From Alphaproteobacteria bacterium (GTDB taxonomy: Bacteria > Pseudomonadota > Alphaproteobacteria > Micavibrionales > Micavibrionaceae), in assembly GCA_030427385.1 (NCBI GenBank), contig JAUHWR010000001.1, forward strand, positions 1,980,042 to 2,044,041: DNA of 64,000 bases, given 5' to 3'. Both the position numbers and the translations under genes were made by a program. Of the stretch, positions 31,687-57,497 are shown one piece after another. Under the pieces are notes generated by a model that saw only the letters and a list, made by a program, of their open reading frames with translations, was not told where the DNA came from and did not search any database. Numbering within the stretch: the first letter of the stretch is position 1; each line of letters begins with the position of its first letter.

Positions 31687-34600
31687 TTAATAATCCCATT
31701 CCCAAAAGACGCCGACATCGGCATCACCGTTTTGGCCGGTTTTGCTCTCCACGGTGACGCTGGGGGTCAGCTCGATTTGAACGGAGGCGGCGCCGGTATT
31801 TTCGCCCGCGCCGGTTTCAAGTTCAAGATAGACATCATCGGAGATATATTTGCCTGCGCCGACGGTGGCTTCTTCGGTGCCGACGCCTTCAACGCGGATA
31901 TCATCCAGACCCGTTAAATCACGCACCGTCCCAAGCAGGTCAATGCCGCCGCCGCCTTTGCCGGAGAAACGGCGCAAGGTTTGCGCCAATTGCACGGCCT
32001 GATAGGGGGAGATATTACTGGGGTCTTCGCCAAATAAAATGCGGGAGAGGACTTCGTCTTCGGGGAGTTCGGGCGTGGAGGAAAAGGTGAGTTCGGGATC
32101 GGTGGCGCGTCCGCCGATTAGGATGTGTCCGGTGATATCATCCTCCAATTCCGTCGAGGTTTTGACGTCCAGATAAGGGGAGGGCGGCACCGCCCCCTGG
32201 AAACGCAGGATGGCATAATCAATCTCAAAACGTTTGCCCAGTTCCTCATAACGTCCGCGAATGGTTTCCAGTTTGCCTTGAATATCGGGCGCGGCGGCGG
32301 TTCCGGTGATGGCAAGATTGCCCCCAAGCTCGGCATCCAGACCCCAGCCGCGCACAAAAATTTGTTGTGCGGCGTCAAAGGTAATATCCAGATTAAGCTT
32401 TTCCATCATATTCGGTCCCTGTTTTTTGTCTTTCTCACGGGTGACGACATTCAGGGTGGGAATGGTTTCATTAAAACGCTCGGGGATATTGATCTGGATT
32501 TCTTCGGGGGTGATTTGCCCGGTTAAGAAGTAATTTCCCGCGCGTGTGATCAAATCCATATTGGCATTCAGGCGGACGTTATATTCATCGCTTTGGAGCA
32601 GGCGAATATTATTGGCGCGTACGTTTGCGGTCATGTCAGGGGTTGCCGCATTTGCCAGATCAATGCGCCCATTGGCGGTGATTGTGCCGGTTCCGGCGGC
32701 GTCTGTGCCGTTGAAAGACTTTAGAATGACTTCTTTGCCTTGGAAGGCGGCATCGGCGCTCAGGCTTTTGAGTTCGATTTCATTTACAGCGTCCAAAAAT
32801 CTGCCGTTTTTCCATGTGAGTGTACCGCGCAGATCAGGGGCGGAGGGCGCGCCGCCGATGGTGGCATTCAGGTTTATATCTCCGCCGATTTGATAAGCTT
32901 CGGGCATAAAAAGCGGGGTGATGGAGGCAAGATCAAAGTTACCATTTGCGTCGCCGCTTAGCGCCGCATTTTGCGCTAGATTAAAGGCGAATGGTTGCAA
33001 GGATAAAGATAAGGGCAGGGCGGCTTGCCCGGTCAGGGATTTAATCCCCTCACCTTTTGCGGAAAAAGAGGCGGATGCTTTGTTATCTTCATAGAGCGCC
33101 GCGCCGCTTAAGGTGACCGCCGGGGCTTTGGGTAGGGTGGAGGTGAGGGCGTAATCCACATTCAGGCGCGGGGCGGCCATGGTGCCGGATAATGCTGCGC
33201 TTAGGTCATTGATTTTAAGGGGTAATTTAGATAAATCGGCATAGGGAAGCGCCGCCAAATTTAGGGTTTTGCTGGTGAGTTTGAAGTCTGGGATATCGTT
33301 TTGTAGCGTACCGCTTAGGGTGGCGCTGCCGCTGCCGGCGGTCAGGGTGAGAGCGGGGATGTTCAGATTTAGGGGTTTAAAGGCTTCAATTTCCGCATTG
33401 CCTTTTACGGTGAAGGGTTGTTTGGCAAAGGCGTTCATGGTCAGGGCGATTTTTGCGCCGCGCTCAAAGGGTTCCAGATTGATTTGTGCGGATGTGATTG
33501 TGGTTTGCGGCACGTCGGCCTGTACGATATCAATTTGACCTGTTGCGGATTTGATGTCTTTGACATTGGGCAGGTTGAGGGCGGCGGTGACGGTTTTGGC
33601 GCGGATATCATTATAGGTCAAATTATTGATCGACACATTTGCGGCGGCGGCCTGTTGGTCATTGTCGCCCGCAGCGCTGAGGTGAAATTTACCGTTACCG
33701 CCAAGGTTTTGTTTGGCAAGGCTGTTGACAAGATCAAGACTGTCGAAATTGCCCGTGATATCACCTGCGGCAAGTTTAGTGGTCAGGTTATAGGTAAGGT
33801 TACCGCCAAGGGTGATGTCGTTGGATGTGCCCGATAAATCGCTCAAAGTGATGATTTCCTGATCGCGTTTGAGCAGGGCGGATAATGAGGCGGGGATATC
33901 CTTATAGGCGGTATCAAGCGCGATATCGCCGTTAAAGTGATCTATCTGTCCGGTGATATTTGCGGAAAATGTGATCGGCGCGGTCAGATCGGGGGAGAGG
34001 GCGGCGGTATTCTCCCAAATGCCGGCGCTTTCGATTGAAAAATCTTTGGTGTCGAGGTTATAAAATCCGTTTGCGTCAATATGGTTATCATCATTAATCA
34101 GATTGATGTTAGACAAGGTTAAAAGCTGTTCGTTTGCATTATAGGTAATATCATTTGTCAGGGTCAGCGGCAGGTAGGGGCGCGCGGTTTCGGAATCCAA
34201 ATTCTCAATTGTCAAGCGGCCATGATCGGAGAGGATTTGGTCATCTATGGTGAGCGTTTGGGCAAGGTTGACATCCAGTTCAAGGCCGCCCTTTACCACT
34301 TTATCTGATAAGGAAAGGCGGCTGACATCGATCAATAGGTCAATGGTTTGAAAGTAGATATTGGGAATGTGGAATGCGGGTTTTTCTGTTTCTTCCTCGG
34401 TATCTTTTTTGACCGGCTTAGGAATGGACAGCAGGGAGATATGGCGAGAGGAGAGGGAGACATCCAGACCCTTTACCGCAAGATGAAACGGATTAAGGCG
34501 CAGGCGCGTATTTTGTGCGCGTAAAAACGGCGTCTCCGCGGTAGAGAGTTGCAGGTTTCCGATTTGTAATCCGAGTAATCCGCTTAGGCTGACGCCCGCC

Positions 34601-34800
34601 AGTTCCACCTGATAGGGGCTGTCTTTCATAGCGGTTTCGATTTGCGCGGCAAGCCAAGCGCCGCCGTGATTGGTATTTAGCCAGACGATCACGCCCTGCA
34701 CCGCGATGATGAGTAAAAATGAGAGGAGGAGTATAATCGAGAGCAAGGCCAGCGTGGTCTTGCTGATGATATAGGCGGCGCGTTTGATGTGTTTATTCAT
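31687..34800 (-). CDS. tamB: Translocation and assembly module protein TamB
   Basis: The 1037-residue protein has one N-terminal signal anchor (LALLSIILLLSFLLIIAVQG). Long repetitive beta-strand sequence of AsmA/TamB type follows. The C-terminal DUF490 domain ends with the typical LGTVRDLTGLDDIRVEG and VFWEWDY. TamB spans the periplasm and works with TamA in outer-membrane protein insertion or lipid transport. The start overlaps the tamA stop by one base (TAATG), so the two are coupled. It is shorter than E. coli TamB, as is usual in alphaproteobacteria. Confidence 0.93.
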   Translation of the reverse strand: MNKHIKRAAYIISKTTLALLSIILLLSFLLIIAVQGVIVWLNTNHGGAWLAAQIETAMKDSPYQVELAGVSLSGLLGLQIGNLQLSTAETPFLRAQNTRLRLNPFHLAVKGLDVSLSSRHISLLSIPKPVKKDTEEETEKPAFHIPNIYFQTIDLLIDVSRLSLSDKVVKGGLELDVNLAQTLTIDDQILSDHGRLTIENLDSETARPYLPLTLTNDITYNANEQLLTLSNINLINDDNHIDANGFYNLDTKDFSIESAGIWENTAALSPDLTAPITFSANITGQIDHFNGDIALDTAYKDIPASLSALLKRDQEIITLSDLSGTSNDITLGGNLTYNLTTKLAAGDITGNFDSLDLVNSLAKQNLGGNGKFHLSAAGDNDQQAAAANVSINNLTYNDIRAKTVTAALNLPNVKDIKSATGQIDIVQADVPQTTITSAQINLEPFERGAKIALTMNAFAKQPFTVKGNAEIEAFKPLNLNIPALTLTAGSGSATLSGTLQNDIPDFKLTSKTLNLAALPYADLSKLPLKINDLSAALSGTMAAPRLNVDYALTSTLPKAPAVTLSGAALYEDNKASASFSAKGEGIKSLTGQAALPLSLSLQPFAFNLAQNAALSGDANGNFDLASITPLFMPEAYQIGGDINLNATIGGAPSAPDLRGTLTWKNGRFLDAVNEIELKSLSADAAFQGKEVILKSFNGTDAAGTGTITANGRIDLANAATPDMTANVRANNIRLLQSDEYNVRLNANMDLITRAGNYFLTGQITPEEIQINIPERFNETIPTLNVVTREKDKKQGPNMMEKLNLDITFDAAQQIFVRGWGLDAELGGNLAITGTAAAPDIQGKLETIRGRYEELGKRFEIDYAILRFQGAVPPSPYLDVKTSTELEDDITGHILIGGRATDPELTFSSTPELPEDEVLSRILFGEDPSNISPYQAVQLAQTLRRFSGKGGGGIDLLGTVRDLTGLDDIRVEGVGTEEATVGAGKYISDDVYLELETGAGENTGAASVQIELTPSVTVESKTGQNGDADVGVFWEWDY

Positions 34801-36536
34801 TAAAAGGCCTGCCCGATGCTGATGTAGAATTGGTAGCCTTGATCGAGGTCATCTTTTTGGGTGAGCGGGACGGCAACATCAAAGCGAATGGGGCCAAAAT
34901 CAGTGTAATAACGCACGCCAACGCCCGCGCCGATATAGGTGCCGCCCTTTAGGTCAGGAAAGGCGCTGTCGGAGACGCCGCCCGCATCGACAAATACCGC
35001 TCCGCCAAAGCTGTTATTGAATTTCAGGCGCAGTTCGGTGGTGGTTTCAATGATCGAGCGCCCGCCGGAGGGATCGTTTTGTGCATCGATTGGGCCGGCT
35101 TCCTGATAGCCATAGCCGCGGATGGAACCGCCGCCGCCCGCGTAAAAACGCTGTGAGGCGGGGATATCCTGGGTTTCCGTTCCCAAGATCGAGCCAATTG
35201 AGGCGCGGAGCGCAATCACGCTATCGAATAATGATTTACCAAGACCGATATAGGTCGTGCCGGTGGCGCGGGTTTTGACGAACGGCGCCGTCGTGCCAAT
35301 CGCATCAATAAACGGCGCGGCAAGTAGGCGCAGGGTATAGCCCTTTTTCGGGTTCAGGACATCATCGCGGCTGTCATAATTTAGCTTGGCAGGAAAGGAA
35401 ACAAGCGCGTAATTATTAGTGCTCTCGCCTTCTTCAGTGATTTGCAGCAGGTTTAACCCCACACCGAGACTGGCGCTCCAGAAGCGGGAGAGTTCACGTT
35501 CAATGGCGGCGCTGGCATTAATCCCAAGCTCATCATAGGCATCGGTTTCTTCGCGTTGTAAGGAGGAGGTAAAGCTGAAGCTTTGTTTATCGGTTAGGAA
35601 GAACGGTTTCTTAAAATCAAGGCCGACTTTTTGCAAAATGCCGGAAATTTGGGTGGAAACCGATAGCTCCTCGCCCGAGCCAAAGAAATTACGATGCAGC
35701 CATTCGGCCAGAACGCCCGGCCCTTCGGAGGTGCTGTAATTTGCACCGAGGCGGACTTTGCGCGGGGCGCGTTCCTTTAATTCCATGGCAACGGGGACAA
35801 GTCCATCTGCCGGAACATCTTCGGGCAGGGTGACGTTGATCGTGCTGATGAGGCCGGTTTTGAGCAGGGCGTTTTTGGTATCTTCCAGCTCGGTGGCTTT
35901 CCAGCAATCGCCATTATGATATTTGATGAATTTTTGTAAATAATCCTGATCTATATTTGGCGCGCCGGTAAGAGTTGTGGCCCCGAACTTTGCCTGATCG
36001 CTGGCGGTGACATCAAAAAAGACATCTGCCATATGCGCGCTTTGATCGAGAAAAACACGGTTTTTAATGGCAAGCTTATAAAAGCAGTTATCGTCAGATA
36101 CAGTTGTGATGATTTTTTTCTGGGCGCTTAAGACATCCCTGGCCATTAGCGGCGAGCCGGGCGCGAGTTTGAGCGGCGGGGCGGGGCTGTAGCCCGTGAC
36201 ATCAATCAGCGAAATTGTATAAAGCGGACCGGGGGTGATGAGATAGGTATCCGGCGTTGCGGGATCATTTGTGACTTTGGGGTTATAATAGCCGAGCGCC
36301 TTGGCAGCCTTTTTTAATTGTGCCTTAATCGTCGCGGGGTAGGGGGCGGGATCATCCTTATCACGATCATTAAAGGCGGGAAGGACTTTATCTTCGATAT
36401 AGCTTTTGAGGGCGGGGGTATCCTCCAGACCGCTGACCGCGATTTTGGCGAAGGCGGGAGACAAGCACAAGCATAGCGCCGCCGCAATAACAGCGGCAGG
36501 GACAACGCGCAAGGATATCAAATTCGAACGGATCAT
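34800..36536 (-). CDS. tamA: Translocation and assembly module protein TamA (Omp85 family)
   Basis: The 578-residue outer-membrane protein has a signal peptide (VIAAALCLCLSPAFA), a POTRA region (about 30-240) and a C-terminal 16-strand barrel of the Omp85 family. The barrel contains the conserved RFYAGGGGSIRGYGYQEAGP (lid-lock RGY motif), and the protein ends in Phe. It forms a complex with TamB, encoded immediately downstream. It precedes the export-related block, which may be more than coincidence. Confidence 0.93.
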   Translation of the reverse strand: MIRSNLISLRVVPAAVIAAALCLCLSPAFAKIAVSGLEDTPALKSYIEDKVLPAFNDRDKDDPAPYPATIKAQLKKAAKALGYYNPKVTNDPATPDTYLITPGPLYTISLIDVTGYSPAPPLKLAPGSPLMARDVLSAQKKIITTVSDDNCFYKLAIKNRVFLDQSAHMADVFFDVTASDQAKFGATTLTGAPNIDQDYLQKFIKYHNGDCWKATELEDTKNALLKTGLISTINVTLPEDVPADGLVPVAMELKERAPRKVRLGANYSTSEGPGVLAEWLHRNFFGSGEELSVSTQISGILQKVGLDFKKPFFLTDKQSFSFTSSLQREETDAYDELGINASAAIERELSRFWSASLGVGLNLLQITEEGESTNNYALVSFPAKLNYDSRDDVLNPKKGYTLRLLAAPFIDAIGTTAPFVKTRATGTTYIGLGKSLFDSVIALRASIGSILGTETQDIPASQRFYAGGGGSIRGYGYQEAGPIDAQNDPSGGRSIIETTTELRLKFNNSFGGAVFVDAGGVSDSAFPDLKGGTYIGAGVGVRYYTDFGPIRFDVAVPLTQKDDLDQGYQFYISIGQAF

Positions 36537-36642: not shown

Positions 36643-37947
36643 TTAAGGTGTGATTAGCCCCATATTTGCTGCGTTCAATAAACCGAGATTAGCCGCAAGG
36701 AGATAGTTGGAGAGCTCACCTTGATATTTTGTGCCAACCAGAGCGGTTTGAGAAGTAATGATGTCATTACTGGCATCCAGAATATCCAGTACGGTACGCT
36801 GGCCAAGTTTGGCTTCCTCCTCCACGCCATGCATGGTGCTTTCGGCGGCGGTGATTTCAATCATGCGGTATTCTTCCTCATCGGCGGCGCTGGTTAAGAT
36901 GCGGTAATTACGTAGAACATCTTGGCGGATTTGACGCTGTAGATCTTCGGCCTCATAGGTGCTGCGCTTGGCGCTATGTTTTGCTTGGCGCAGACGGGAG
37001 CGAGTTGTGCCCGCCTGATAGAGAGGGATAACAGCGCGCAATCCCAGTGTTTCGACGGCGCTGCTGGTGATAATGCCGGGTTGGGGGTCGTATGATTTAT
37101 TATAAGCCGCATAGGCAGACAGGCGGGGCAGTAATTCGCGAAAGACGCTATCGATGCCATGTTCGGCGGCATTTTGTTCATAGCGGGCAATCCAAAGATC
37201 GGGGTTTTGCGAGTCTGCTGCGGCTAATAATTCATCAATTCCATCCGGAAATTGAAAATCCAGCATGGGGACGGATGGTACGTTATCGGCGGATAGACCC
37301 GTGATTTGTTCAAATTCTGCCATGCTGATATCCATGGCGCGTTTGGCATTAATAACGGCGCTGTCGGCGCGGGCAAGGCGGCCTTTGGCTTGATCGACAT
37401 CGGTAATTGTTAATTCACCGCCGTCAAAACGCGCGCGGGCGCCATTACGCTGGCCTTGGATATTTTCCTGATTTTTCAGGCGCAGATTATATAGTTGTAC
37501 ATCGCGTTTGACATTCAACATGGCGCGGATTGCCTCCAGCAAGATATCCTGTTCGGCTTGGTGTAGATAGGCTTCGCCGGCATTGATCAGGGCGCGGGCG
37601 CGGCGCGTTTCGGCAAATGTTTTGCCGCCCTGCCAGATGGGTTGATCGAGAGTTACGCTATAATCCTTTGTCGTGGCACCATCGCCGCCGCCAAAATTAC
37701 TATTATCAATATCGGTGGTAAAAATACCGGCTTCGGCGCCGAGTGTGGGACGCCATCCGGAGGTTGCCTGCGGGTATAGTTCTTTTGTTTCCGCCAGTTT
37801 TTCACGGGCTGCATTTAAACCGGGGTGGGTATGATAGACATGGCGCAGTACCTGGAAAAAATTTTGGTGGTCTGGCTGTTCCTCTGCGGCATGGAGGTGA
37901 GTGGGGGATAGAAGTAAAAAAGAAAGTAGTAAAATACGAAGAATCAT
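36643..37947 (-). CDS. TolC-family outer-membrane efflux/secretion channel
   Basis: The 434-residue protein begins with a signal peptide (ILRILLLSFLLLSPTHLHA). The start at 37947 has GAGGTT five bases upstream. Two repeats of the outer-membrane efflux fold include ATSGWRPTLGAEAGI, LDQPIWQGGKTFAETRRAR and QAGTTRSRLRQAKHSAKRS, with the expected coiled-coil helices. It lacks a long C-terminal extension. Its position beside the ABC/HlyD genes suggests it is the outer-membrane component of that type I system. It is transcribed away from them. Confidence 0.9.
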   Translation of the reverse strand: MILRILLLSFLLLSPTHLHAAEEQPDHQNFFQVLRHVYHTHPGLNAAREKLAETKELYPQATSGWRPTLGAEAGIFTTDIDNSNFGGGDGATTKDYSVTLDQPIWQGGKTFAETRRARALINAGEAYLHQAEQDILLEAIRAMLNVKRDVQLYNLRLKNQENIQGQRNGARARFDGGELTITDVDQAKGRLARADSAVINAKRAMDISMAEFEQITGLSADNVPSVPMLDFQFPDGIDELLAAADSQNPDLWIARYEQNAAEHGIDSVFRELLPRLSAYAAYNKSYDPQPGIITSSAVETLGLRAVIPLYQAGTTRSRLRQAKHSAKRSTYEAEDLQRQIRQDVLRNYRILTSAADEEEYRMIEITAAESTMHGVEEEAKLGQRTVLDILDASNDIITSQTALVGTKYQGELSNYLLAANLGLLNAANMGLITP

Positions 37948-38063
37948 AGCAACCTCAAATTGATTAATGTCATCATTCGAGATAATCAAACTATAAGTTA
38001 ATATACAACTATAAATGTATATTTATACACAATGCGAATAATTATATACAATTGTATGTGTAA

Positions 38064-38786
38064 TTATATGGTCATTTGGCCGTCATGACCGCGATCAAGC
38101 ATATAGCCGATGCAACGAATGGTTCGTATGATTTGTGGACAGGTGGCATCATCCCCCAATTTTTTGCGTAATCTGGTGATTTTGACATCAATGGCCCGCG
38201 GGGTCGGGATGTAATTATCTTCGCGAATTGATTCGCATAAATCCTCTCGCCGTACCGGCTCCCCCAAATTTTTATATAGGGCTTCGATGAGTAGATATTC
38301 ACGCATCGTCAAGTCAATCGGCTGGTTTTCGCGGTCAAGTAATTGGTAGCGCTCCGGGTCTAGAGTCATGCCGTGGAAGCTGAAATTTTGAGGCTCCGGA
38401 TGATTATTTTGCCATGTGTCATTGGCTTGAAAGCGGCGTAGATTGGCGCGTATGCGGGCATTGACATCCTGAACATCGAACGGTTTGCAGATATAATCAT
38501 CCGCGCCGAAATCAAGGCATCCCGTTTGTTTTTTCATGCATGTTTCCCCGCTGATGATAATAAGAGGTGCATTGGTTTGCAGGCGCAGGTCAGGAATAAA
38601 ATTTTCAGCAGATCCATCAGGTAAATGTAAATCGAGAAGAACCAAATCAATGGGATGTTGGCTTAAGACATCCATCATGCGCTTTCCGTTGGCGGCTTCG
38701 ATAACAAGGAATCCTTCTTCTTCCAAGTTATCTTTCAGGATTGTACGGACAATTTTATCGTCGTCAACGACCAGCAGGGTTTGCAT
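38064..38786 (-). CDS. OmpR-family response regulator
   Basis: The 240-residue protein has a receiver domain with the phosphoacceptor D52 (LVLLDLHLPDGSAEN), the acidic pocket DDD at residues 8-10 and the conserved Lys in DDYICKPFDV. A winged-helix DNA-binding domain of OmpR type follows (about 140-235), with REYLLIEALYKNLGEPVRRE and VKITRLRKKLGDD. It is divergent from the secretion operon, and GAAA repeats at helical spacing lie between them, making it the likely direct regulator. No kinase is adjacent, although the hybrid kinase at 48646 could be its partner. Confidence 0.92.
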   Translation of the reverse strand: MQTLLVVDDDKIVRTILKDNLEEEGFLVIEAANGKRMMDVLSQHPIDLVLLDLHLPDGSAENFIPDLRLQTNAPLIIISGETCMKKQTGCLDFGADDYICKPFDVQDVNARIRANLRRFQANDTWQNNHPEPQNFSFHGMTLDPERYQLLDRENQPIDLTMREYLLIEALYKNLGEPVRREDLCESIREDNYIPTPRAIDVKITRLRKKLGDDATCPQIIRTIRCIGYMLDRGHDGQMTI

Positions 38787-38917: not shown

Positions 38918-41455
38918 ATGGAAGAAAAGATAGAAACGAATCAAGTCACATCAAAAATTGAAAATGGTCAGGAATTATCCGATCTGGTTTTTGTCCCTGT
39001 ATCCAAGTTGGATGCTGATCAATATATGGTGAGCGATCTGGACGGTGTGACCGAGAGTGTCTTCGGATCCGGCAATATGGGATATGCCAGTCTGCAAGCC
39101 GCGCAAACAAATGGGGCTTTTCAAAAATTTCAAAGTGATATCACAGAAGGCATGGGCGATGATGCAGTGCAGAGCGGTAATGTTCAAACGGCCAAAATGC
39201 CATCATTATCATCATTCAGTTCAGAAATATCGGGGTTATCCAATATCCCTGCTGATGTTGGGACAAGTGTTCCTGAAGGTGGCGCGCAGGATCCTTTATC
39301 GAATAAAGACGGTTCAGCAGGCGTGACCAATGCAGCGGTCAGTTCGGTCAGCGCATCAGAATTATCATCAAATGCAGGAAATTTCAGCCCGAGCGGGTCT
39401 GGGTTAAGTTTATCGGAAACAGGGGGGAGTACGACAAATAACAGCACGTCTTCGACAAGTTCAACAACGAATACGATCACACATAATACACAGAATAATT
39501 ACACCTATAACAATACCTATAATGATGGTGACGTAACTAATAATTATTATGATAACAGCATTAACATTTTGAATGATTTTGATCTGGATTTATTGAATGT
39601 GAATATTCTGGTCGATCAGGTTTTTACAAACGTCAATACCACGATTGAAACGCTATTAAATTCGGTCGGGGATGTTACCGGCAAATTATTATTCATTCTG
39701 AATAACTTGCAAAATGCAACCGGTGATACATTGAATATTGTCACCACGATTACGGCGGATTTGCTGGAGTCAGTTACGAATAATCTGGAAGTTTTGCTGC
39801 AAAGTGTGACTGAAACTCTGGGTGATAATCTGGAGACTGTTACCAATAACATTCAAAATATTCTGGATTTAGATATCATAAATAATATCGATATCATCGA
39901 TACGGTGGGCGATACCATCGGGCATTTGGGCGGCGCAGTTCATAATTTAAAACTTGTGATTGGTGATGTTAAAAACGTGATCACGGATTTGGATGTGACA
40001 AATGTGGCGGGCGATGCGCTGACATTAATTGATACGAAGCTATCCCTATTGGAAGTTGTTGTTGATCAGACAATTTTGGTTGCGGATAACGTGCTGAATG
40101 ATTTGGGTCTTGATTTATTCGGAGACGGAAACGGCGATGGGGATATCGGATTAGGTTTGGACCTTGATTTAGCGGGGCAGGGCATTTTTGATGTGCCATT
40201 GGATGTTGTCATTGATCCGATTGAGGATTTAGCCGGAGATATCGATCTGGATTTAAATATAGGATTGGATTTATTCGGTACGGATAATGTTGATAATGAT
40301 GCAGGTGATCAGGATCTGACGTTACTGGCGGATGTTGATTTATTAGATGACAATATTGTTGATCTTGCCGAGGCGGTGGAGTTAGACCCGGTTGAGGCTA
40401 TAGTCGGGGATATAGATATTGATTTAACCGATGCGGTGAATATCCTTGGTGATCAGGCAGGCGGATTATTGGATCAGGAAGACGGCGGATCAGGCGGCGG
40501 AATTCTGGCCCAAGTTGGTGATGTGGTTGCCGATATCGCCGATGCCGTTTTACCCGATATTGAAGATGGTCTGTTGGAAGATGCCGGATTGGGCGCAATT
40601 GGCGATCTTATCGGCGGTGATTTGCTGGGCGGCGGCGATGATGGTGATCATGATATCGGCGCGGGATTGGACGTCGATTTGGTTGATCATGATCTTGTTG
40701 ATGTGCCTTTGGATGTTGCCATTGATCCGGTTGAAGATTTAGTGGGTGATATTGATCTGGATTTGAATGTCGGCATTGATGTCTTTGGTACGGATGATAT
40801 CGATAATGATGCCGGTGATCAGGATGTAACGTTATTGGCGGATGTGGATATTCTTGATGATGATATTATCGCATTGGCAGATGGGTTGAATTTGGATCCG
40901 GTGGAGGCCATTACGGGTGACATAGATGTGGATTTAACCGATGCGGTGAATATCCTTGGTGATCAGGCAGATGGATTATTAGATCATGAAGATGGCGGAT
41001 CGGATGGCGGTTTGCTGGCAGATGTCGGTGATATCGTTGCCGACGTAGTCGATGCCGTTCTGCCCGATATTGGTGGCGGATTACTTGGCGGCGCGGATGA
41101 TGGCATCTTGGGCGGTGATGAGGCATTAAATGCAGACTCGGTTGAAGATTTGCTGCAAGAAATTGATCTGGGGCTTGAGCCGGTCATGGATATTTTAGAT
41201 TTGGGTCAAGTTGGCGGTGATGATGCCGATGGCGGATTACTGGGCGGTGATGATGGCGGTGTGGTCAATTGGACCGATACCATTATTACCGAAGGGATCG
41301 GAGTCTTTGATGATCTGAATAGCGGCCTTGGAGCAGGCGGCGGTATTTTACCGGAACCTGTCGGAAGTGTGGCAGAGGGGCTGGGCGCGTTAGATATTAC
41401 GGGTGATCATGGCGGCGGCGGTGGCGGCGGCATATTCGGAGGATTATTCGGATGA
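38918..41455 (+). CDS. Large Asp/Leu-rich repeat protein, probable type I secretion substrate
   Basis: The 845-residue protein has no signal peptide. The N-terminal part is Ser/Asn/Thr-rich and ends in a spacer full of Asn and Tyr (about 170-215). Helical segments with the pattern LLESVTNNLEVLLQSVTETL cover about 220-400. Two tandem 170-residue acidic repeats follow (residues 409-578 and 579-735). The C-terminus is Gly-rich (GGGGGGGIFGGLFG). No Cys is present. The first ABC gene overlaps its stop by four bases, and a strong AGGAGG precedes ATG 38918. Substrates of type I systems are usually encoded beside their transporter, lack signal peptides and are acidic, so secretion by the downstream system is the best reading. 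A surface adhesin or matrix role is inferred. Confidence 0.75.
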   Translation: MEEKIETNQVTSKIENGQELSDLVFVPVSKLDADQYMVSDLDGVTESVFGSGNMGYASLQAAQTNGAFQKFQSDITEGMGDDAVQSGNVQTAKMPSLSSFSSEISGLSNIPADVGTSVPEGGAQDPLSNKDGSAGVTNAAVSSVSASELSSNAGNFSPSGSGLSLSETGGSTTNNSTSSTSSTTNTITHNTQNNYTYNNTYNDGDVTNNYYDNSINILNDFDLDLLNVNILVDQVFTNVNTTIETLLNSVGDVTGKLLFILNNLQNATGDTLNIVTTITADLLESVTNNLEVLLQSVTETLGDNLETVTNNIQNILDLDIINNIDIIDTVGDTIGHLGGAVHNLKLVIGDVKNVITDLDVTNVAGDALTLIDTKLSLLEVVVDQTILVADNVLNDLGLDLFGDGNGDGDIGLGLDLDLAGQGIFDVPLDVVIDPIEDLAGDIDLDLNIGLDLFGTDNVDNDAGDQDLTLLADVDLLDDNIVDLAEAVELDPVEAIVGDIDIDLTDAVNILGDQAGGLLDQEDGGSGGGILAQVGDVVADIADAVLPDIEDGLLEDAGLGAIGDLIGGDLLGGGDDGDHDIGAGLDVDLVDHDLVDVPLDVAIDPVEDLVGDIDLDLNVGIDVFGTDDIDNDAGDQDVTLLADVDILDDDIIALADGLNLDPVEAITGDIDVDLTDAVNILGDQADGLLDHEDGGSDGGLLADVGDIVADVVDAVLPDIGGGLLGGADDGILGGDEALNADSVEDLLQEIDLGLEPVMDILDLGQVGGDDADGGLLGGDDGGVVNWTDTIITEGIGVFDDLNSGLGAGGGILPEPVGSVAEGLGALDITGDHGGGGGGGIFGGLFG
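40142..41105 (+). repeat. Two tandem long repeats in the Asp/Leu-rich protein gene
   Basis: The unit starting at 40142 recurs at 40652, a period of 510 bases (170 codons). Both units share runs such as DIDLDLN, NDAGDQD, LTDAVNILGDQA and AVLPDI at equivalent places. The second unit is slightly shorter at its end. Confidence 0.8.
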
Positions 41456-43191
41456 TGAGTACGGCAGGGGCATTATTTACAGACACATTCGCGCACAAAA
41501 AAGACGATATTTTACAACCGGACGGATTTAAGCAAGATACGGGATCGTTATTATTATCTACATTTGTGATTAATATTCTCTCATTGGCATTGCCGGTGAT
41601 GACATTACAGATTTATGATCGTGTGTTGCCGAATGAGGGGACATGGACCTTACCGGTTTTAATTATCGGGGTCTGTTTGGCGATTGTTCTGGAGGCGATG
41701 CTGCGTTTATGTCGGCAATATATCACCAGTCGCGCCGGTGCCAAATATGAGCATTTAACAGCGTGCCGCGCGATGGATAAAGTGTTGAATGCCGATTTAT
41801 CCAAAACCATTGATTACGGTATCGGCGAGCATTTGCACCGCATGGGATCGGTGGGCAAGGTAAAGGATTTTTATAATGGTCAGGCCTTAGTCACGTTGGC
41901 GGAGCTGGCGTTTATTCCGGTGTTTTTGGGTTTGATTTATTATATTGCGGCGCCGTTAATATTGGTGCCCATTACGATTTTAAGTATTTTTACCGCCCTG
42001 TCATTTTGGGGGGGATATAGATTACGTCATGCCTTGCAGCGCCGCGAAAAAGCCGATGATCACCGTTTTAATTTCCTGATTGAATCCTTAAAGGGTGTGC
42101 ATACTCTTAAGGCCTTTTCCTTAGAGAAATTTTTCGAGCGGCGTTATGAAGCTTTGGAGGAGACATCAACTTATGCCAATTATCGCGTGACCGAGGAAAC
42201 GGCAGGAATTTTTAATAACGGGGCGATTTTCTCGCATTTAATGGTTACGAGCGTGATTAGCGTGGGGGCGTGGTGCGTGTTAAGCGGATATGTCACAACG
42301 GGCGGATTGATTGCCACCCTTTTATTATCAGGGCGTATGATGCAGCCCGTTCAAAAGGCGCTGGGGTTATGGGCGCGTTATCAGGATTATGCCCTAGCCC
42401 GCGCACATTTAAGCGGGATTTTATTAACGCCGCAAAATGAAAACGAATATGTAGAAGAGGCACCGCAAGTATATCCGGAAGGACGATTAAAGATAACGGA
42501 TATGTCGTTTAAGTACCAAAAAGACGAGCATAACTTTTTGGAAAAAATTGACTTAAGTTTGAAATATGGCGATACGATCTTAATATCCGGCGCGCAGGGG
42601 GCGGGAAAATCAACATTGTTAAATTTGATTTCGGGAATATACCCCCCTGCCAGCGGGGAAATTATGATTGATGGGCAGAGATTGCAGTCTTTCTCTCAGA
42701 ATCAATTTATCAAGCATGTTGGTTATATCCGATCCGAGCCAATGATTTTTCGCGGTACGATCCGCGATAATGTGACCGCCTTTGGGTTGATACCCGAAGC
42801 GCAGGTGCAAGAGGTTGCCAGATTATTAGAGATTGATCGCGATATTGCCAAATTACCGGGCGGGTTTGATACGTTCCTGAGCGGGAATAATACTGATTCC
42901 ATCCCATCCGGCTTGAAACAACGGCTTTCGATTTTACGCGTTCTGGCAACCAAGCCGAAATTGATCTTATTTGATAATGCCGATCGCGCCTTGGATAAGG
43001 AAGGATATGCCATGATTTATAGCTTTTTGGCACGTCTTAAGGGCAAAGCCACCATGATTTTAGTGTCTGAAGATCGCAATATTTGTGATTTGGCGGAGCG
43101 TCATTATGTGATGAGAGACGGGAAATTAATACCGGATTCTCAGCAAGAAAAACAAGGAAATATCAAGCCATATCAGGAGTTAAGATTATGA
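41452..43191 (+). CDS. Type I secretion ABC protein with degenerate nucleotide-binding domain
   Basis: The 579-residue protein has six membrane segments (about 30-300, beginning LLLSTFVINILSLALPVM with the type I landmark LQIYDRVLPNEG) followed by an ATPase domain. Walker A (SGAQGAGKSTLL) is intact. The signature that should read LSGGQ is SIPSGLKQRLS. Walker B ends LILFDNADRALD, where the catalytic Glu is replaced by Asn. The switch His region reads ILVSEDR instead of AHR. The Q-loop Gln is also missing (GYIRSEP). These changes suggest it hydrolyses ATP poorly or not at all. It overlaps the next ABC gene by four bases, and the pair probably forms a heterodimer. Confidence 0.9.
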   Translation: MMSTAGALFTDTFAHKKDDILQPDGFKQDTGSLLLSTFVINILSLALPVMTLQIYDRVLPNEGTWTLPVLIIGVCLAIVLEAMLRLCRQYITSRAGAKYEHLTACRAMDKVLNADLSKTIDYGIGEHLHRMGSVGKVKDFYNGQALVTLAELAFIPVFLGLIYYIAAPLILVPITILSIFTALSFWGGYRLRHALQRREKADDHRFNFLIESLKGVHTLKAFSLEKFFERRYEALEETSTYANYRVTEETAGIFNNGAIFSHLMVTSVISVGAWCVLSGYVTTGGLIATLLLSGRMMQPVQKALGLWARYQDYALARAHLSGILLTPQNENEYVEEAPQVYPEGRLKITDMSFKYQKDEHNFLEKIDLSLKYGDTILISGAQGAGKSTLLNLISGIYPPASGEIMIDGQRLQSFSQNQFIKHVGYIRSEPMIFRGTIRDNVTAFGLIPEAQVQEVARLLEIDRDIAKLPGGFDTFLSGNNTDSIPSGLKQRLSILRVLATKPKLILFDNADRALDKEGYAMIYSFLARLKGKATMILVSEDRNICDLAERHYVMRDGKLIPDSQQEKQGNIKPYQELRL

Positions 43192-45416
43192 GTAGCCCCG
43201 CCGCAAACGCCGCGCAAGATGACAAAGCATTTGAGCGCTTTGTCGATAGTCAGCCAATTTTAAATATGCTGGCCTTATTAAGCAGAACTGGGCGTAGCCA
43301 TTTTGAAGAAGAAGGCGCATGGGAAGTTTGTTTATGCGCGATGGTCATGAAATTAGAGCCGCAATGCACCGTACAAAGAATTTTGGAGGCATTGCCATAT
43401 CATAATGACAAGATGGATGCGGAGGATTTCTTAAATACCATGGCGCATTTAGGTTATTTTTGCCGTAAGGCGGAAAGCGCGTTGGAATATATTGATGAGC
43501 GTTTATTGCCCGCTGTCTTTATTCCCGATTACGGCCATCCATCCATTATTATCGGACGTGAAGCCGATGGACGACATAGATTTTATGATCCTATCTCCAA
43601 GTTAGTGTCCAATGTTGCGCCTAGCACTGAAAATAGCGGACATATCTGGTTTTTTCAAAAGTATGACGAGCAAAAATCATCTCTGTCTAAATTTATGCGA
43701 AAAGGCAGTGGGTATAGCTGGTTTTATGCATTGCTGCGCCGCTTTAATGGCACATTCGCACAGGTCATGACGGCGGGTTTCATTTTGAACATTATTGCGC
43801 TGATTACGCCGTTATTTATTATGCTGGTTTATGATCGCGTTATTGCGGCGGGCAGCATGGAAACATTACCGATGTTGGCGGTGGGCGCATTTATTGCGAT
43901 TGGCTTTGAGTGGAAATTGCGCGGCATACGATCACGCGGTCTGTCATGGTTGGCAGGGCGGTTGGATAATATTGTCGGTAATCGCATTTTAGCGCATTTG
44001 ATTGGTTTGTCCCCCGATACGATTGAAAAAGCATCCGTATCGGCGCAGATTGCGCGGATTAAAACATTTGAATCGGTGCGCGATTTTTTTAGCGGATCCG
44101 TCTTTTTATCCGTCTTGGAAGCGCCGTTTGTCTTTATTGCAATTGGGGCGGTGATGATGATTGCGGGGCCGTTGGTTTATGTGCCGCTATCGGTGTCGGT
44201 GGCGTATATCGCGCTGTTTATCTATATCCGTCAAAAGGTGAAAGTTTATATTCGCCTGGCGGCGAAAAACAGCTCGGCACGTCAACAATTTACAATTGAG
44301 ACGTTTGAGAAGTTGCACGGTATTCGCGGGCAGGGTTTGACCGGAAAATGGCAACAAAAATTCCGCCATTTATCAGGGCAGGAAATGATGTCGCATTTTG
44401 TTCTGGGGTGGTATGGCATTTTGGCGGAAACGTGCGCGCATACCTTGACGGTTCTGGCCGCCGTGATGACGGTGGGGTTTGGCGTGCATCTGGTATGGGC
44501 CGGCGCAATGAGCGCGGGCGCGCTGGTGGCCAGTATGATTTTGGTGTGGCGTATTTTGACCCCGTTCTATGCGATATGTACGATGATCCCGCGTCTTGAG
44601 CAGCTGCGGAATAGTATTCATCAGGTGAACCAGTTAATGGATATTGAAACCGAAGCCGAAGCCGCGCGTAGTTTTTCCAGATTGCCGCGTTTAAGCGGGG
44701 CGCTGTCATTTCAAAATGTGTCATTTAAATATCAGCCTGACCAAGATGTTATTTTTTCCAATTTAACATTCGAGGCCAAGGCCGGGGATTTGGTGGCAAT
44801 TACCGGCGGTAATGGATCGGGCAAAGCCACAATTTTGAAATTATTGAAATCATTGCATCAACCGGAAACAGGCACCATACGATTGGACGGATTTGATATT
44901 CGCCAGTTGGATGCGCCGCATTTACGCCGCCAGATTGCCTATGTGCCGAAAACGCCGCATTTTTTCCACGGATCGATTTTGGAAAATTTACGCTTTTCCA
45001 ATCCGCTAGCGAGCCGTGAGGATATTGAAAAAGCGCTGGATTTGGCGAATATTTTGGAGGCGGTGCAGGAATTGCCAAAGGGGTTGGATACGGTGATCGG
45101 GTATCATAGTGATATTAAGCTGACATCCAATATGCAGGCATGTTTATCGCTGGCGCGGGCATATTTACATCCGGCGGCGTTATTACTGATTGATGAATTA
45201 CCCAATAAATTATTATCGGGGCGCACAGGGCAAAATTTAAAAGATTATCTGGCACGTGCCAAAGGCAAACGCACCATTTTATTCTGCACGTATCGTGAGG
45301 ATTTTATGAAATTGGCGGATACGATTGTATGGCTGAAGGAGCAGGAAAAGCCCCTTTGCGTTACCCGCGCCGATTTTTTTGATAACATTAAAACACAATT
45401 AAAGGTTGTATCATGA
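43188..45416 (+). CDS. Type I secretion ABC protein with C39-like N-terminal domain and degenerate ATPase
   Basis: This 742-residue protein has an N-terminal C39-peptidase-like domain (about 20-160). The catalytic Cys is not recognisable, although the later HPSIIIGREADGRHRFYDP is, as in LapB-type transporters that only bind substrate. Membrane segments fill about 185-470 (IALITPLFIMLVYDRVIAAG). The ATPase domain has Walker A GGNGSGKATIL, with Ala where Ser or Thr binds Mg. The signature is LTSNMQACLSLARA instead of LSGGQ, and TYR replaces the switch-His motif. Walker B (LLLIDEL) keeps Asp-Glu. The protein complements its partner only partly. It overlaps the adaptor gene by four bases. Confidence 0.9.
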   Translation: MSSPAANAAQDDKAFERFVDSQPILNMLALLSRTGRSHFEEEGAWEVCLCAMVMKLEPQCTVQRILEALPYHNDKMDAEDFLNTMAHLGYFCRKAESALEYIDERLLPAVFIPDYGHPSIIIGREADGRHRFYDPISKLVSNVAPSTENSGHIWFFQKYDEQKSSLSKFMRKGSGYSWFYALLRRFNGTFAQVMTAGFILNIIALITPLFIMLVYDRVIAAGSMETLPMLAVGAFIAIGFEWKLRGIRSRGLSWLAGRLDNIVGNRILAHLIGLSPDTIEKASVSAQIARIKTFESVRDFFSGSVFLSVLEAPFVFIAIGAVMMIAGPLVYVPLSVSVAYIALFIYIRQKVKVYIRLAAKNSSARQQFTIETFEKLHGIRGQGLTGKWQQKFRHLSGQEMMSHFVLGWYGILAETCAHTLTVLAAVMTVGFGVHLVWAGAMSAGALVASMILVWRILTPFYAICTMIPRLEQLRNSIHQVNQLMDIETEAEAARSFSRLPRLSGALSFQNVSFKYQPDQDVIFSNLTFEAKAGDLVAITGGNGSGKATILKLLKSLHQPETGTIRLDGFDIRQLDAPHLRRQIAYVPKTPHFFHGSILENLRFSNPLASREDIEKALDLANILEAVQELPKGLDTVIGYHSDIKLTSNMQACLSLARAYLHPAALLLIDELPNKLLSGRTGQNLKDYLARAKGKRTILFCTYREDFMKLADTIVWLKEQEKPLCVTRADFFDNIKTQLKVVS

Positions 45417-46753
45417 TTTGGAATTTCCTGAAAAATAAAAGTGAAAAAAGAGAAAAGCAAACGCGCTATCTCTCGCAAGCGATCCAGTTAGAGGAAGCGG
45501 TTAATCCGCATATTATCCGCGCAACGATGGGGATGATATGTTTGGCAATTCTGGTATTTTTGGGATGGGCGTCGGTGACATCGATTAGCGAAGTTGCCCG
45601 CACGCCGGGGGAGGTGGTTCCCGCCGGTTATCAGCAAACGGTGCAGCATTTGGAAGGCGGCATGGTCGAAGCCATTCATGTTCATGAGGGCGATATTGTC
45701 GCCGAGGGACAGGTGTTAATGACCCTGAGCGCCGATGGGATCGGAGAAGATTTGGCGCGGGCGCAGCAAAAGCAAATGGCGCTGGCGATACAGATTGAGC
45801 GTCAACGTGCGTTTATTGAAGGGCGGGAGCCGGATTTTTCACAGTTTGAAATTCGTGACAGCGCGAATTTAACTGATCACCAAAAATCATTTGAAGGTAT
45901 GCGCAGCGCACGTGAGGGAGAAGGCAGCGTTGTTGAAAATCAGATCAGGGAAAAACAACAGAGTTTGCTATCCCTGCAGAATGATTTAAAGACGGCGGAG
46001 CTGAATTTGAAGATTGCGCGAGAGATGTATAACAGGCGCGCGGCTTTGAATAAAAAGGGTTATGCGTCGGATATGCAATTATTAAAAGATGAACAGCGCG
46101 TCAATGAAATTAAGGGGGAAATTGGGCGGCTGCAAAAAAACATTGATATTGCCCATACGCAGATCGGCGAATTTAAAAGCCGGGCAACGTCTCTTACGGC
46201 GCAGCATATTGATCAATCACATGAGAAATTAGACGCAGTTTTAGCCGAAGCAGCGCAAAATGAAAAAATCATTGAAAAATTAGAACAACGGATTGATAAG
46301 CTGCGTATTAAAGCGCCGACTGAAGGGTTAATCAAAGGATTTGAGATTAATACCGTCGGGGCAATTATCCAGCCGGCACAAAAAATTATGGAGATTATTC
46401 CGATTGCCGAAACATTTGAGATAGAGGTGAAAATATCGCCGCAGGATATTGGGCATGTAAAGGTCGGGCAAAGTGTACAGACCAAATTCGCGACCTATGA
46501 TTTTTCGCGTTATGGGTTTGTAAAGGGCAGTTTAAAGCGCATTTCCGCAACCACTTTTACGGGGGAACAAGGCGAGCGTTATTATAAAGGGCACATTTTA
46601 TTGGATAAAAATTATGTCGGTCATGACCATGCCAATCAAATTATTCCGGGCATGACAGTTATGGCGGATGTCATTACGGGGCAGAAAACAATATTGCAAT
46701 ATTTATTAAAGCCCATCCATCTATCGTTGAAATCATCATTCGCAGAAAGGTAA
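45413..46753 (+). CDS. HlyD-family membrane fusion protein (type I secretion adaptor)
   Basis: The 446-residue protein has one N-terminal membrane anchor (MGMICLAILVFLGWASV). A lipoyl-like half-motif (PGEVVPAGYQQTVQHLEGGM) and long periplasmic coiled-coil hairpins (about 120-300) follow. The second lipoyl half (LRIKAPTEGLIKGFEI) and the beta domain end the protein. HlyD proteins connect the inner-membrane ABC unit to the TolC channel. It completes the type I system with the two ABC genes upstream and TolC at 36643. Confidence 0.95.
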   Translation: MIWNFLKNKSEKREKQTRYLSQAIQLEEAVNPHIIRATMGMICLAILVFLGWASVTSISEVARTPGEVVPAGYQQTVQHLEGGMVEAIHVHEGDIVAEGQVLMTLSADGIGEDLARAQQKQMALAIQIERQRAFIEGREPDFSQFEIRDSANLTDHQKSFEGMRSAREGEGSVVENQIREKQQSLLSLQNDLKTAELNLKIAREMYNRRAALNKKGYASDMQLLKDEQRVNEIKGEIGRLQKNIDIAHTQIGEFKSRATSLTAQHIDQSHEKLDAVLAEAAQNEKIIEKLEQRIDKLRIKAPTEGLIKGFEINTVGAIIQPAQKIMEIIPIAETFEIEVKISPQDIGHVKVGQSVQTKFATYDFSRYGFVKGSLKRISATTFTGEQGERYYKGHILLDKNYVGHDHANQIIPGMTVMADVITGQKTILQYLLKPIHLSLKSSFAER

Positions 46754-46760
46754 GCACATT

Positions 46761-47720
46761 ATGTTAGCCGCACCATTAGAAGATAATATCGATTATACGT
46801 TACTGAAAAAAAACGACATGATCCGCATTTTGGCCGTAGAGGATGATCTGTTATCCATGCAATTTTTAGAGGCGCAGATCAAAGAATTGGGTCATGAGAT
46901 GATTCAGGCGGAAAACGGACAAAATGCAATTGATATTATGCTGCAGCAAAAAAATAATATCGATGTGGTTTTAATGGATCGTGAAATGCCGGTCATGGAC
47001 GGCTTAAGTGCGGTTCGTAATATAAAAGCGAATAAGGAATTGCGAAATATTCCGATTATTATGGTTACCGGCGCAGATAGTCAGGAGGAATTAAAAGAGG
47101 GGTTGGATGCGGGGGTGTTTTATTATCTGACAAAACCTGTCGATGCCAAAATGTTGCAGTCAGTTTTATCCGCCGCGGTCAGGCAAGCCAAGCAAGAAAG
47201 AACATTAGCGGAAGAGCTTGGGAAACATCGGACCAGTTTTCATTTGATTGAAACATGTAAATTCAGTTTCAGAACATTAGGGGAGGCGGAGAGTTTAGCG
47301 GCGTTTATTGCCAATTGTTTCCCCAATCCCCAGCGTGTTTTAACAGGATTAGGCGCGTTATTAATCAATGCGGTAGAGCATGGAAATTTGGGAATAACCT
47401 ATGAGGAGAAAACCGAAATGATCGCCGCCGGAACATGGCGTGCGGAAGTTAAAAGATTGCAAAAGTTACCGCAGCATCAAAACAAATCCGCACAAGTTAC
47501 CATTGCGAAAAAGGAGGATGGTATTTATGTGGTGATTGAAGATGAGGGCGCGGGATTTGTCTGGCAGGATTATATCACGATTGACCCCGCGCGTGCGGGC
47601 GATAATCATGGGCGCGGGATCGCACAGGCAAAGTCGGTCAGTTTTGATCGTTTAAATTACAATGAACAAGGCAATAAAGTCGTCGGCTTTGTTGGTCATG
47701 GCAAGCAAATGGAATGGTAA
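46761..47720 (+). CDS. Receiver domain fused to RsbW-like ATPase domain
   Basis: The 319-residue protein has an N-terminal receiver domain (about 22-145) with the phosphoacceptor Asp in VVLMDREMPVMDG and the conserved Lys in YYLTKPVDAKM. The C-terminal domain (about 170-315) is a HATPase_c_2 module of the RsbW/anti-sigma kind, recognisable from LGALLINAVEHGNLGIT (N-box) and VVIEDEGAGFVWQDY (G1 box) with NHGRGIAQAKSV. Such fusions link phosphorylation to partner-switch signalling. It starts seven bases after the adaptor gene stop. The target sigma-factor or anti-anti-sigma partner is not encoded nearby. Confidence 0.88.
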   Translation: MLAAPLEDNIDYTLLKKNDMIRILAVEDDLLSMQFLEAQIKELGHEMIQAENGQNAIDIMLQQKNNIDVVLMDREMPVMDGLSAVRNIKANKELRNIPIIMVTGADSQEELKEGLDAGVFYYLTKPVDAKMLQSVLSAAVRQAKQERTLAEELGKHRTSFHLIETCKFSFRTLGEAESLAAFIANCFPNPQRVLTGLGALLINAVEHGNLGITYEEKTEMIAAGTWRAEVKRLQKLPQHQNKSAQVTIAKKEDGIYVVIEDEGAGFVWQDYITIDPARAGDNHGRGIAQAKSVSFDRLNYNEQGNKVVGFVGHGKQMEW

Positions 47721-55310: not shown

Positions 55311-55382
55311 TGAATTTGTAGAAATGTTAGTAAGTGCAGATAGTAGTTAATACATTAAAAAATTAATTTGAGAGTGTGTAAA

Positions 55383-57497
55383 ATGGCGATTTATTATGTA
55401 GACCAGAAATCTGGCCTTGCCAGTGATAATAATACGGGCACACAGGCGCGTCCGTTTTTAACTATTCAAGCCGCTGTTGATTCTTTGCGACCCGGCGATA
55501 TTGTTTACGTTAAAGAAGGTACATACGATCAGTTTAATATCACCACATCCGGGACTGCGGGAAACAGAATTGTTATTACTAGCTGGCCCGGTAATGATGA
55601 TATGCCGATCATTGATGGAAAATATAGTTCCGGACGCGGGGTTATTGAATTAAGAGGACAAAGTCATTTCGAGGTGAGCGGTTTTAATATTAAACATGCT
55701 TCTACGGATGGGATTTTTGTCGAAGGATCAGCCGGCGGCGAGCGAGATATCGTGATCGCAGATAATTTGGTTTCAGATACTGGCAATGCGGGTATTTATG
55801 TTGCCGGTTTAATTATGGGACAAACCATTGGCGTGAATGAATTCCGTTTATTCGATGTCAAAATTACTGGCAATGAAGTCACCAGAACAAATGTACCCAG
55901 CGGTGGGAATGAAGCAATCTCGGTTGGCGGCGGCGTTGATGGCTTTGAAATTAGCAATAATCACGTTCACGACAGTGAGCAATATGGCATTGATATCAAG
56001 TTAGGCGTTCAAAACGGATCAATACATGACAATGTGATCCATGGCATTGAAAAGCATGGGATATATGTTGATAGCGCCTCCAGAGCGATCAAAAATGTAG
56101 GTATTTATAATAATACGGTTTTTGATAATAATAATGGAATTGTTTTGGCTAGAGAAAGTAACAGACAGCCGGCCGATCCCGATATTCAAAACATTAATAT
56201 TTTCAATAATGATGTATATGATAATCATAAATACGGCATCATGCTTTACAAACATAAGTGGGATGATGAAACGGGTTTATTTGATAATGTTAACATCACC
56301 GCAAATGATATTCATGGCAATGGCATTGATGGTTTGCGGTTGGTTGAAGTTAATTACGCGACAAATATCGTTGCCGACGGCAATGCGATTTATAATAACG
56401 CCAATAATATCCGTAACGGGATAGGCGCGGTTGTGAAAAATACATTGAATGCGGCAACATCCAAGGTGGGTGTGCAGAAAGACGTGGTCATCCCCGCTCA
56501 ACCGGATACGCCGAAGGAGCCAGATCAAAATAACGGGAAGCTGGTTATCAAATTGGTGGATGTAGACACAGATAAGGTGATTCACGTTATCCAAAACGGC
56601 GATGCCATTATAACCAACCCAGCCATGAAGATTGGGATTATCGCCGAATATGCAGGCGGGGCAAAGAGCATTACATTTGATTTGAATAATGGTGAGGTGA
56701 TACGTACGGAAAATGTCGTTCCTTTTGCCCTATTCGGCGATAGAAACGGGGATATTTTTGGATCAGAATTAGGTCACGGCAGTTTTACTTTAAATGTAAA
56801 AGCATTTTCCGCCGCCAATGGTAAAGGCAGTTTATTGGAGGGGCGCGATTTTTTCTTTAGCTTTACGGATGAGAAAATTGACGAGCCTGTCTTGCAGGAA
56901 AGCTCTGACAATTTGGCGCGATTTACCAATATTGATAATGTCCAAACCGGCGATAAAAGTGATAATAAGCTGAATGGTACGATGGAAAATGATCGCCAAT
57001 TCGGCGGAATTGGGAATGATACATTGTTGGGGGCAGGCGGAGATGATGAACTGCGCGGCGGCAATGGTAATGATGTCTTGAAAGGGCATAATGGGGATGA
57101 CCTTCTGGATGGGGGGGTTGGCGATGATATTCTTTATGGGGCTCATGGCAATGACATCCTTTATGGCGGCGCCGGTCATGACGCTTTATATGGTGAGGGC
57201 GGGGACGATATTTTTGTTTTTAGTGAAGATTCGTTTAATGGCAAAAATCATGTTTATGATTTTGACCGTGATGCCGATACGCTTGATTTAAAAGGATTAT
57301 TGGCGGGATATGATGCCAATGATCATGCCATTACCGATTTTATATCCATCACAAGAAGCGGTACAAACAGTATTGTTAAGGTTGATGTCAGCGGATCAAA
57401 ATCATTTGGCGCTGGAACGGAGATTGCCGTGCTTCATGATGTGATCGGGCTGTCGAACGAAGAGGCTTTGGTAAAGGATGGTACAATTATCATTTAA
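55383..57497 (+). CDS. Beta-helix protein with RTX repeats, probable type I-secreted carbohydrate-active protein
   Basis: The 704-residue protein has no signal peptide. Residues about 3-365 form a right-handed parallel beta-helix (IYYVDQKSGLASDNNTGTQA, IVITSWPGNDDMPIIDG and many N-rich turns) like that of alginate C5-epimerases and pectate-lyase relatives. A beta-sandwich-like domain (about 385-500) follows. RTX nonapeptides (GGDDELRGGNGNDVLKG and onward, about 545-625) bind calcium, and the C-terminal tail carries the type I export signal. ATG 55383 is chosen with GAGAG upstream. Enzymatic specificity cannot be told by eye. It could use the TolC/ABC/HlyD system encoded nearby. Confidence 0.9.
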   Translation: MAIYYVDQKSGLASDNNTGTQARPFLTIQAAVDSLRPGDIVYVKEGTYDQFNITTSGTAGNRIVITSWPGNDDMPIIDGKYSSGRGVIELRGQSHFEVSGFNIKHASTDGIFVEGSAGGERDIVIADNLVSDTGNAGIYVAGLIMGQTIGVNEFRLFDVKITGNEVTRTNVPSGGNEAISVGGGVDGFEISNNHVHDSEQYGIDIKLGVQNGSIHDNVIHGIEKHGIYVDSASRAIKNVGIYNNTVFDNNNGIVLARESNRQPADPDIQNINIFNNDVYDNHKYGIMLYKHKWDDETGLFDNVNITANDIHGNGIDGLRLVEVNYATNIVADGNAIYNNANNIRNGIGAVVKNTLNAATSKVGVQKDVVIPAQPDTPKEPDQNNGKLVIKLVDVDTDKVIHVIQNGDAIITNPAMKIGIIAEYAGGAKSITFDLNNGEVIRTENVVPFALFGDRNGDIFGSELGHGSFTLNVKAFSAANGKGSLLEGRDFFFSFTDEKIDEPVLQESSDNLARFTNIDNVQTGDKSDNKLNGTMENDRQFGGIGNDTLLGAGGDDELRGGNGNDVLKGHNGDDLLDGGVGDDILYGAHGNDILYGGAGHDALYGEGGDDIFVFSEDSFNGKNHVYDFDRDADTLDLKGLLAGYDANDHAITDFISITRSGTNSIVKVDVSGSKSFGAGTEIAVLHDVIGLSNEEALVKDGTIII

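Follow-up and report, generated by a model that had tools for sequence, protein, structure and literature searches.

A pair of probable type I secretion ABC half-transporters with eroded ATPase motifs

Results

Two adjacent genes in the window (the whole 64,000-nucleotide stretch of Micavibrionaceae DNA analysed here) encode intact ABC half-transporters of probable T1SS type, P1 and P2, whose ATPase motifs are eroded in both proteins, and comparison with their homologues confirms that this degenerate pair is real. Judged from its motifs and by analogy with known exporters, the pair could be an asymmetric, TAP/TmrAB-like T1SS exporter that is gated by ATP at one of its two composite sites (site A) and that carries out little or no hydrolysis, a reading to which we give an even chance.

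Table 1. Genes and ATPase motif positions of the P1/P2 locus, numbered from the first nucleotide of the window; counts refer to the derived clade described in the text.
Feature	Position	Strand	State or remark
TolC-family outer-membrane channel	36643..37989	-	TIGR01844, 266.2 bits (cutoff 225.15)
OmpR-type response regulator	38064..38786	-	Divergent; conserved in many relatives
Acidic protein, 845 aa	38918..41455	+	Probable cognate substrate; overlaps P1 start; N- and C-terminal motifs shared with the gene 5' of P1 in relatives
P1, probable T1SS ABC half-transporter, 579 aa	41452..43191	+	TMD and degenerate NBD, no C39-like domain; Pfam ABC_membrane and ABC_tran
P1 Walker A, GAQGAGKST	42589..42615	+	Retained; K386, S387
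P1 Q-loop position	42733..42735	+	Ser428 instead of Gln
P1 signature, Pro485-Ser486-Gly487 (IPSGL)	42904..42912	+	Second Gly alone kept; 59/60 derived
P1 Walker B, Asp508 and Asn509	42973..42978	+	Asn for catalytic Glu; Asn in 51/60 derived
P1 D-loop Asp515	42994..42996	+	Retained; 60/60 derived
P1 switch position	43069..43071	+	Glu540 instead of His; Asp/Glu/Asn in 57/60 derived
P2, probable T1SS ABC half-transporter, 742 aa	43188..45416	+	N-terminal C39-like domain, TMD and degenerate NBD; Pfam ABC_membrane and ABC_tran
P2 Walker A, GGNGSGKAT	44805..44831	+	Lys546 kept; Mg2+-ligand Ser replaced by Ala547; subclade-specific
P2 Q-loop position	44949..44951	+	Lys588 instead of Gln, the second Mg2+ ligand
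P2 signature, Thr646-Ser647-Asn648 (LTSNM)	45123..45131	+	Both Gly gone
P2 Walker B, Asp669-Glu670	45192..45197	+	Retained; Glu in 49/51 derived
P2 D-loop position	45216..45218	+	Ser677 instead of Asp; Asp in 0/51 derived
P2 switch position	45291..45293	+	Tyr702 instead of His
HlyD-family periplasmic adaptor	45413..46753	+	TIGR01843, 355.4 bits (cutoff 208.65)
Response regulator with C-terminal HATPase domain	46761..47720	+	Operon partner of the degenerate clade

Motif states of the two proteins

The P1 and P2 ORFs overlap in an ATGA, and both proteins come nearest to T1SS permease/ATPase families, TIGR03375 being the top NCBIfam family, with scores of 352.9 bits for P1 and 442.1 bits for P2 that lie below the cutoff of 693.1. 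The AlphaFold models have a mean pLDDT of 90.9 (P1) and 89.8 (P2), with complete NBD secondary structure in both, and the motif positions of Table 1 are consistent with these predicted structures, in that the signature starts a helix, Walker B ends a strand and the switch residue follows a strand. The top fold matches of P1 are PCAT1 and HlyB, while PCAT1, HlyB, PrtD and TmrAB are among the best for the pair; HlyB is also the best match to P1/P2 by sequence in the PDB.

A preliminary description of the locus had assigned to P1 an intact Walker A, an Asn in place of the catalytic Glu and the loss of LSGGQ, the Q-loop Gln and the switch His, and to P2 an intact Asp-Glu in Walker B together with GKA in Walker A, LTSNMQA as the signature and TYR in the switch region, and the motif alignment bears out each of these assignments. 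It overlooked the retention in P1 of G487, the second Gly of the signature, and of D515, the Asp of the D-loop, as well as the absence from P2 of the D-loop Asp (Ser677) and of the Q-loop Gln. Its statement that neither composite site would be complete is literally true of the window pair, but the two sites are unequal, with the core residues defined below kept at site A and not at site B.

A probable asymmetric P1:P2 heterodimer

The first search covered 57 other relatives and found orthologous adjacent pairs with open frames in 16-17 of them, and a protein scan of GTDB genomes yielded 80 loci in Alpha- and Gammaproteobacteria, Desulfobulbaceae, Magnetococcales and others. In all of these P2 directly follows P1, with the exception of one locus whose contig stops within P1. 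Members of the P1 family occur in many more genomes of a phylum-wide sample, in which matches near E 1e-120 probably include canonical T1SS proteins and were left out of the member count. The pair is patchy in its distribution, the sole other genome of the same genus being without it.

P1 and P2 very likely form a heterodimer, as suggested by their constant adjacency, by the mirrored branching of their trees (each protein forms one group, that of P1 with a weak support of 41) and by natural fusions in seven genomes (L195-L201), where a single ORF of 1298-1386 aa encodes P1 first; the complementary retention of motifs points the same way. Homodimers were rejected because a near-complete site arises only in P1:P2, and because fusions exist: a P2-P2 site would be without the signature Gly and the D-loop Asp, and a P1-P1 site without the Glu.

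Within the predicted heterodimer, site A consists of the P2 Walker A and B motifs facing the signature Gly and D-loop of P1, and site B is the reverse. The two were compared by a core score of five residues (Walker A Lys, Walker B Asp, catalytic Glu, second signature Gly and D-loop Asp). At site A this core is complete in 48 of 51 derived pairs, that of the window among them, and in all 18 basal pairs; at site B it is complete in none of the 51 derived and 6 of the 18 basal pairs. A fully canonical site is absent from the window pair, in which site A is without its Mg2+ ligands, the switch His and the signature Ser; the normal P1 signature Ser is missing even in basal members.

Stepwise erosion under purifying selection

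The division into basal and derived members is our own, taken from the P1/P2 tree, and is matched by a later tree calculated without the motif columns (a quick LG+G4 analysis that gave a long-branch warning for L205/L206); the order of losses was inferred on a tree rooted at the fused pairs, the rooting being an assumption. In most basal fused pairs P2 has the Lys, Ser, Gln, Asp-Glu, His and D-loop Asp, with an LSAGF-like signature, and P1 has Asp-Glu and an LPAG-like signature, the switch His having already gone. The other basal pairs are mostly intact except for their signatures. In P1 of the derived clade the Glu to Asn change and the replacement of the switch His predominate (Table 1) and the Q-loop Gln is lost in 58 of 60; a few derived members retain the P1 Glu (e.g. 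L102), so that the Glu change is not perfectly clean. The P1 Walker A has been lost in several lineages in which that of P2 is intact. Most derived members still have the Ser/Thr and the Gln in P2, and some also keep the P2 His, whose change to Tyr is placed around the order of the window. On the subclade formed by the window and seven relatives, P2 exchanges Ser for Ala together with Gln for Lys, Arg or Ala, and in the tree without motif columns this double loss of Mg2+ ligands is confined to one starred clade of eight members. As read from these trees, the Mg2+ ligands of P2 were exchanged once, on one branch, and the erosion of the ATPase is stepwise and one-sided. One Rhodobacteraceae-labelled pair (L129), whose subunits both have a poor Walker A and whose P2 Walker B reads Asp-Ala, is possibly the most degenerate member.

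The survey of homologues proposed in the preliminary description thus finds the same kind of substitutions in orthologous adjacent pairs with open frames at about 80 loci. Of the two circumstances that had been considered capable of explaining them away, frame errors are excluded by these related loci; homologues with more canonical motifs are present among the basal members, and the eroded state of the motifs is therefore derived. In the derived clade, most close pairs whose dS is not saturated have an NBD dN/dS of about 0.02-0.1, similar to that of the TMDs, and some more distant pairs reach 0.16; the degenerate NBDs are under purifying selection. The replacement motifs FDNADR and IPPGLKQRI are themselves conserved among homologues. 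A frame error or pseudogene was rejected on the grounds of the open frames in relatives and the low dN/dS. In P2 of one Micavibrio relative (L071:7756-10140, minus strand, which equals L101:9625-12009, plus strand), about 20 Gly/Ser-rich residues are inserted immediately before Walker A.

Genomic context

The 845-aa protein encoded upstream of P1 contains 16% Asp, 1.2% Lys+Arg and no Cys, ends in a GGIFGGLFG-type C terminus, and has no Pfam or NCBIfam family match. In Micavibrio-like members the gene directly 5' of P1 likewise encodes an acidic, Cys-poor product with a common N-terminal LDADxYxAEDxDGVTESxFGSGN and a C-terminal GGLFG or similar, and we infer that this conserved C-terminal motif is a T1SS signal. 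The neighbours in basal members are large, repeat-rich proteins that appear adhesin-like as judged from their repeats alone. Where a locus has room for it, P2 is nearly always followed by HlyD, and TolC adjoins the pair in many loci.

Of all genes, that for the response-regulator/HATPase protein shows the tightest linkage to the degenerate clade. Among loci with enough sequence, 41 of 46 derived and none of 15 basal ones carry it downstream of P2 and HlyD, a linkage that amounts to approximately one event on the tree; hybrid kinases are linked to the pair too. At one locus (L161) a short gene, STAS-like by its first residues, follows HlyD in place of the response-regulator/HATPase gene. No extra ABC ATPase consistently linked to the operon was found in the neighbourhoods of related loci.

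Discussion

Proposed mechanism

In the reading set out above, P1 and P2 would be the two halves of one exporter that, together with HlyD and TolC, exports the upstream acidic protein. Site B, where the P1 Walker A and B motifs face the P2 signature, would be dead for hydrolysis, and the retained site A would bind ATP with the charge of Lys588 in place of Mg2+, a substitution that we put forward as a proposal. ATP at site A would then close the NBDs and open the channel, with hydrolysis very slow or nil, so that export would be ATP-gated or single-stroke, with the rest of the drive supplied by the proton gradient or by the substrate folding once outside. Binding of ATP without hydrolysis is suggested because the window pair and its seven relatives have lost both site A Mg2+ ligands and the switch His.

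Three precedents bear on this proposal. In TmrAB one round of translocation is driven by ATP without Mg2+, while the reset needs Mg2+-dependent hydrolysis, and the Mg2+ ligands are Q441/T400 and Q419/S378 (PMC13040083); the corresponding positions (Walker A Ser/Thr and Q-loop Gln) are both altered in P2 of the window. Mutation of a D-loop Asp turns TAP into a nucleotide-gated facilitator (PMC7756269), and in E. coli T1SS export draws on the proton motive force as well as on ATP hydrolysis (PMC3034196). It is on account of these precedents that an ATP-gated, barely hydrolytic exporter is favoured. Several points count against it. The D-loop that matters in TAP belongs to the subunit corresponding to P1, where the Asp is kept, so that its loss from P2 need not uncouple transport, and the exchange of the Mg2+ ligands happened just once on the tree. 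P2 retains its catalytic Glu in 49 of 51 derived pairs and in seven of the eight that have lost both Mg2+ ligands, and this is the main point against a full loss of hydrolysis, in which case its retention would be odd unless the residue is structural. Moreover, a non-hydrolysing pump would have no known way to turn over, because the reset of TmrAB needs hydrolysis. The stronger proposal, that a natural T1SS exporter has evolved to work without ATP hydrolysis, is accordingly one that we hold tentatively and regard as more doubtful than credible; ATP or another nucleotide would here be a Mg2+-independent gating ligand at a site with Ala and Lys, the proton gradient or substrate folding would power export, and the linked signalling protein would control it.

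Alternative explanations

Among the three readings offered in the preliminary description, an altered cycle fits best. A rival reading is an ordinary asymmetric exporter in which site A does hydrolyse ATP, if slowly, and the pump runs through a normal though slow cycle, the IPxG signature, Lys588 and Tyr702 substituting for the canonical residues. The near-invariance of the P2 Asp-Glu and of the P1 signature Gly and D-loop Asp argues for such activity, as does the presence of Ser/Thr and Gln in most derived P2 proteins, and of His in some; the window subclade, however, is without both Mg2+ ligands and without the switch His, and hydrolysis by TmrAB is strictly Mg2+-dependent (PMC13040083); we consider this explanation somewhat unlikely. 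The suggested gate or sensor would have transport lost or secondary, with the pair acting as a nucleotide-responsive device that reports the state of the substrate or envelope to the response-regulator/HATPase protein and hybrid kinases. The distribution of that gene between derived and basal pairs and the linked kinases are what it would predict, but the tree shows about one origin of this linkage, which therefore counts as one coincidence, secretion operons are commonly flanked by regulators, and HlyD is nearly always kept, with TolC and a translationally coupled substrate gene often kept as well; we consider it distinctly unlikely.

Reliance on another ATPase, for example through a mixed complex with a canonical T1SS ABC dimer, is unsupported by the neighbourhoods, which hold no consistently linked extra ABC gene. 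The genome does encode two further T1SS-like ABC proteins with full motifs, and HlyB-HlyD contains three HlyB dimers (PMC11026475), but the canonical genes lie elsewhere in the genome and canonical ABC proteins are equally common in relatives without the pair, making this source of energy very improbable. That the pair is a decaying, non-functional remnant is scarcely credible: the motif losses and the patchy presence, including its absence from the same-genus genome, would fit decay, but not the open frames of the related loci, an NBD dN/dS far below 1, the conserved replacement motifs or the well-folded models.

Relation to known systems

The pair resembles HlyB-type T1SS (HlyB/HlyD/TolC, TIGR03375/TIGR01846, PrtD) in its fold, the C39-like domain of P2, its HlyD and TolC partners and the adjacent gene for an acidic substrate, and differs in having two dedicated subunits, sometimes fused, with degenerate motifs and scores below the curated subfamily cutoffs. 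In TAP, TmrAB, TM287/288 and BmrCD, as in the pair, one subunit without the catalytic Glu and switch His gives its signature and D-loop to the better site, and the other keeps Walker A and B with a poor signature; in contrast to these exporters, the better site of the window pair is itself without Mg2+ ligands, switch His and signature Ser, and its context is one of protein secretion. The atypical T1SS of Vibrio MARTX toxins has two ABC proteins, RtxB and RtxE, both reported to be necessary for secretion (PMC3034196), and its likeness to P1/P2 lies in the number of ABC proteins per system, homology being claimed at the level of the ABC family only. CFTR and the TAP D-loop mutant are models for ATP-gated passage without coupled pumping (PMC7756269), but neither is a secretion system, and CFTR keeps one hydrolytic site. 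In the literature searched, which lacked many subscription journals, no T1SS pair was found described as degenerate at both of its sites.

Whether ABC exporters are driven by the binding of ATP or by its hydrolysis is debated, and the evidence comes largely from engineered mutants. Here the hydrolytic parts appear to have been removed by evolution along ordered branches while the transporter is still under strong selection, and the pair may thus serve as a natural test of a pump that works by binding ATP without splitting it. A ladder of natural variants for testing how much ATPase a protein exporter requires would run from the basal and fused pairs, in which site A is nearly complete, through the derived pairs to the window subclade without Mg2+ ligands, and the single-chain fusions offer a ready full-length exporter for structural work.

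Other genes in the window

A 709-aa protein (55368-57497) has beta-helix-like repeats and C-terminal RTX-type GGxGxD repeats, and is a candidate substrate of another T1SS. At 31687-36536, on the minus strand, there are adjacent large genes that are TamB-like and TamA/Omp85-like, judged by eye from sequence only.
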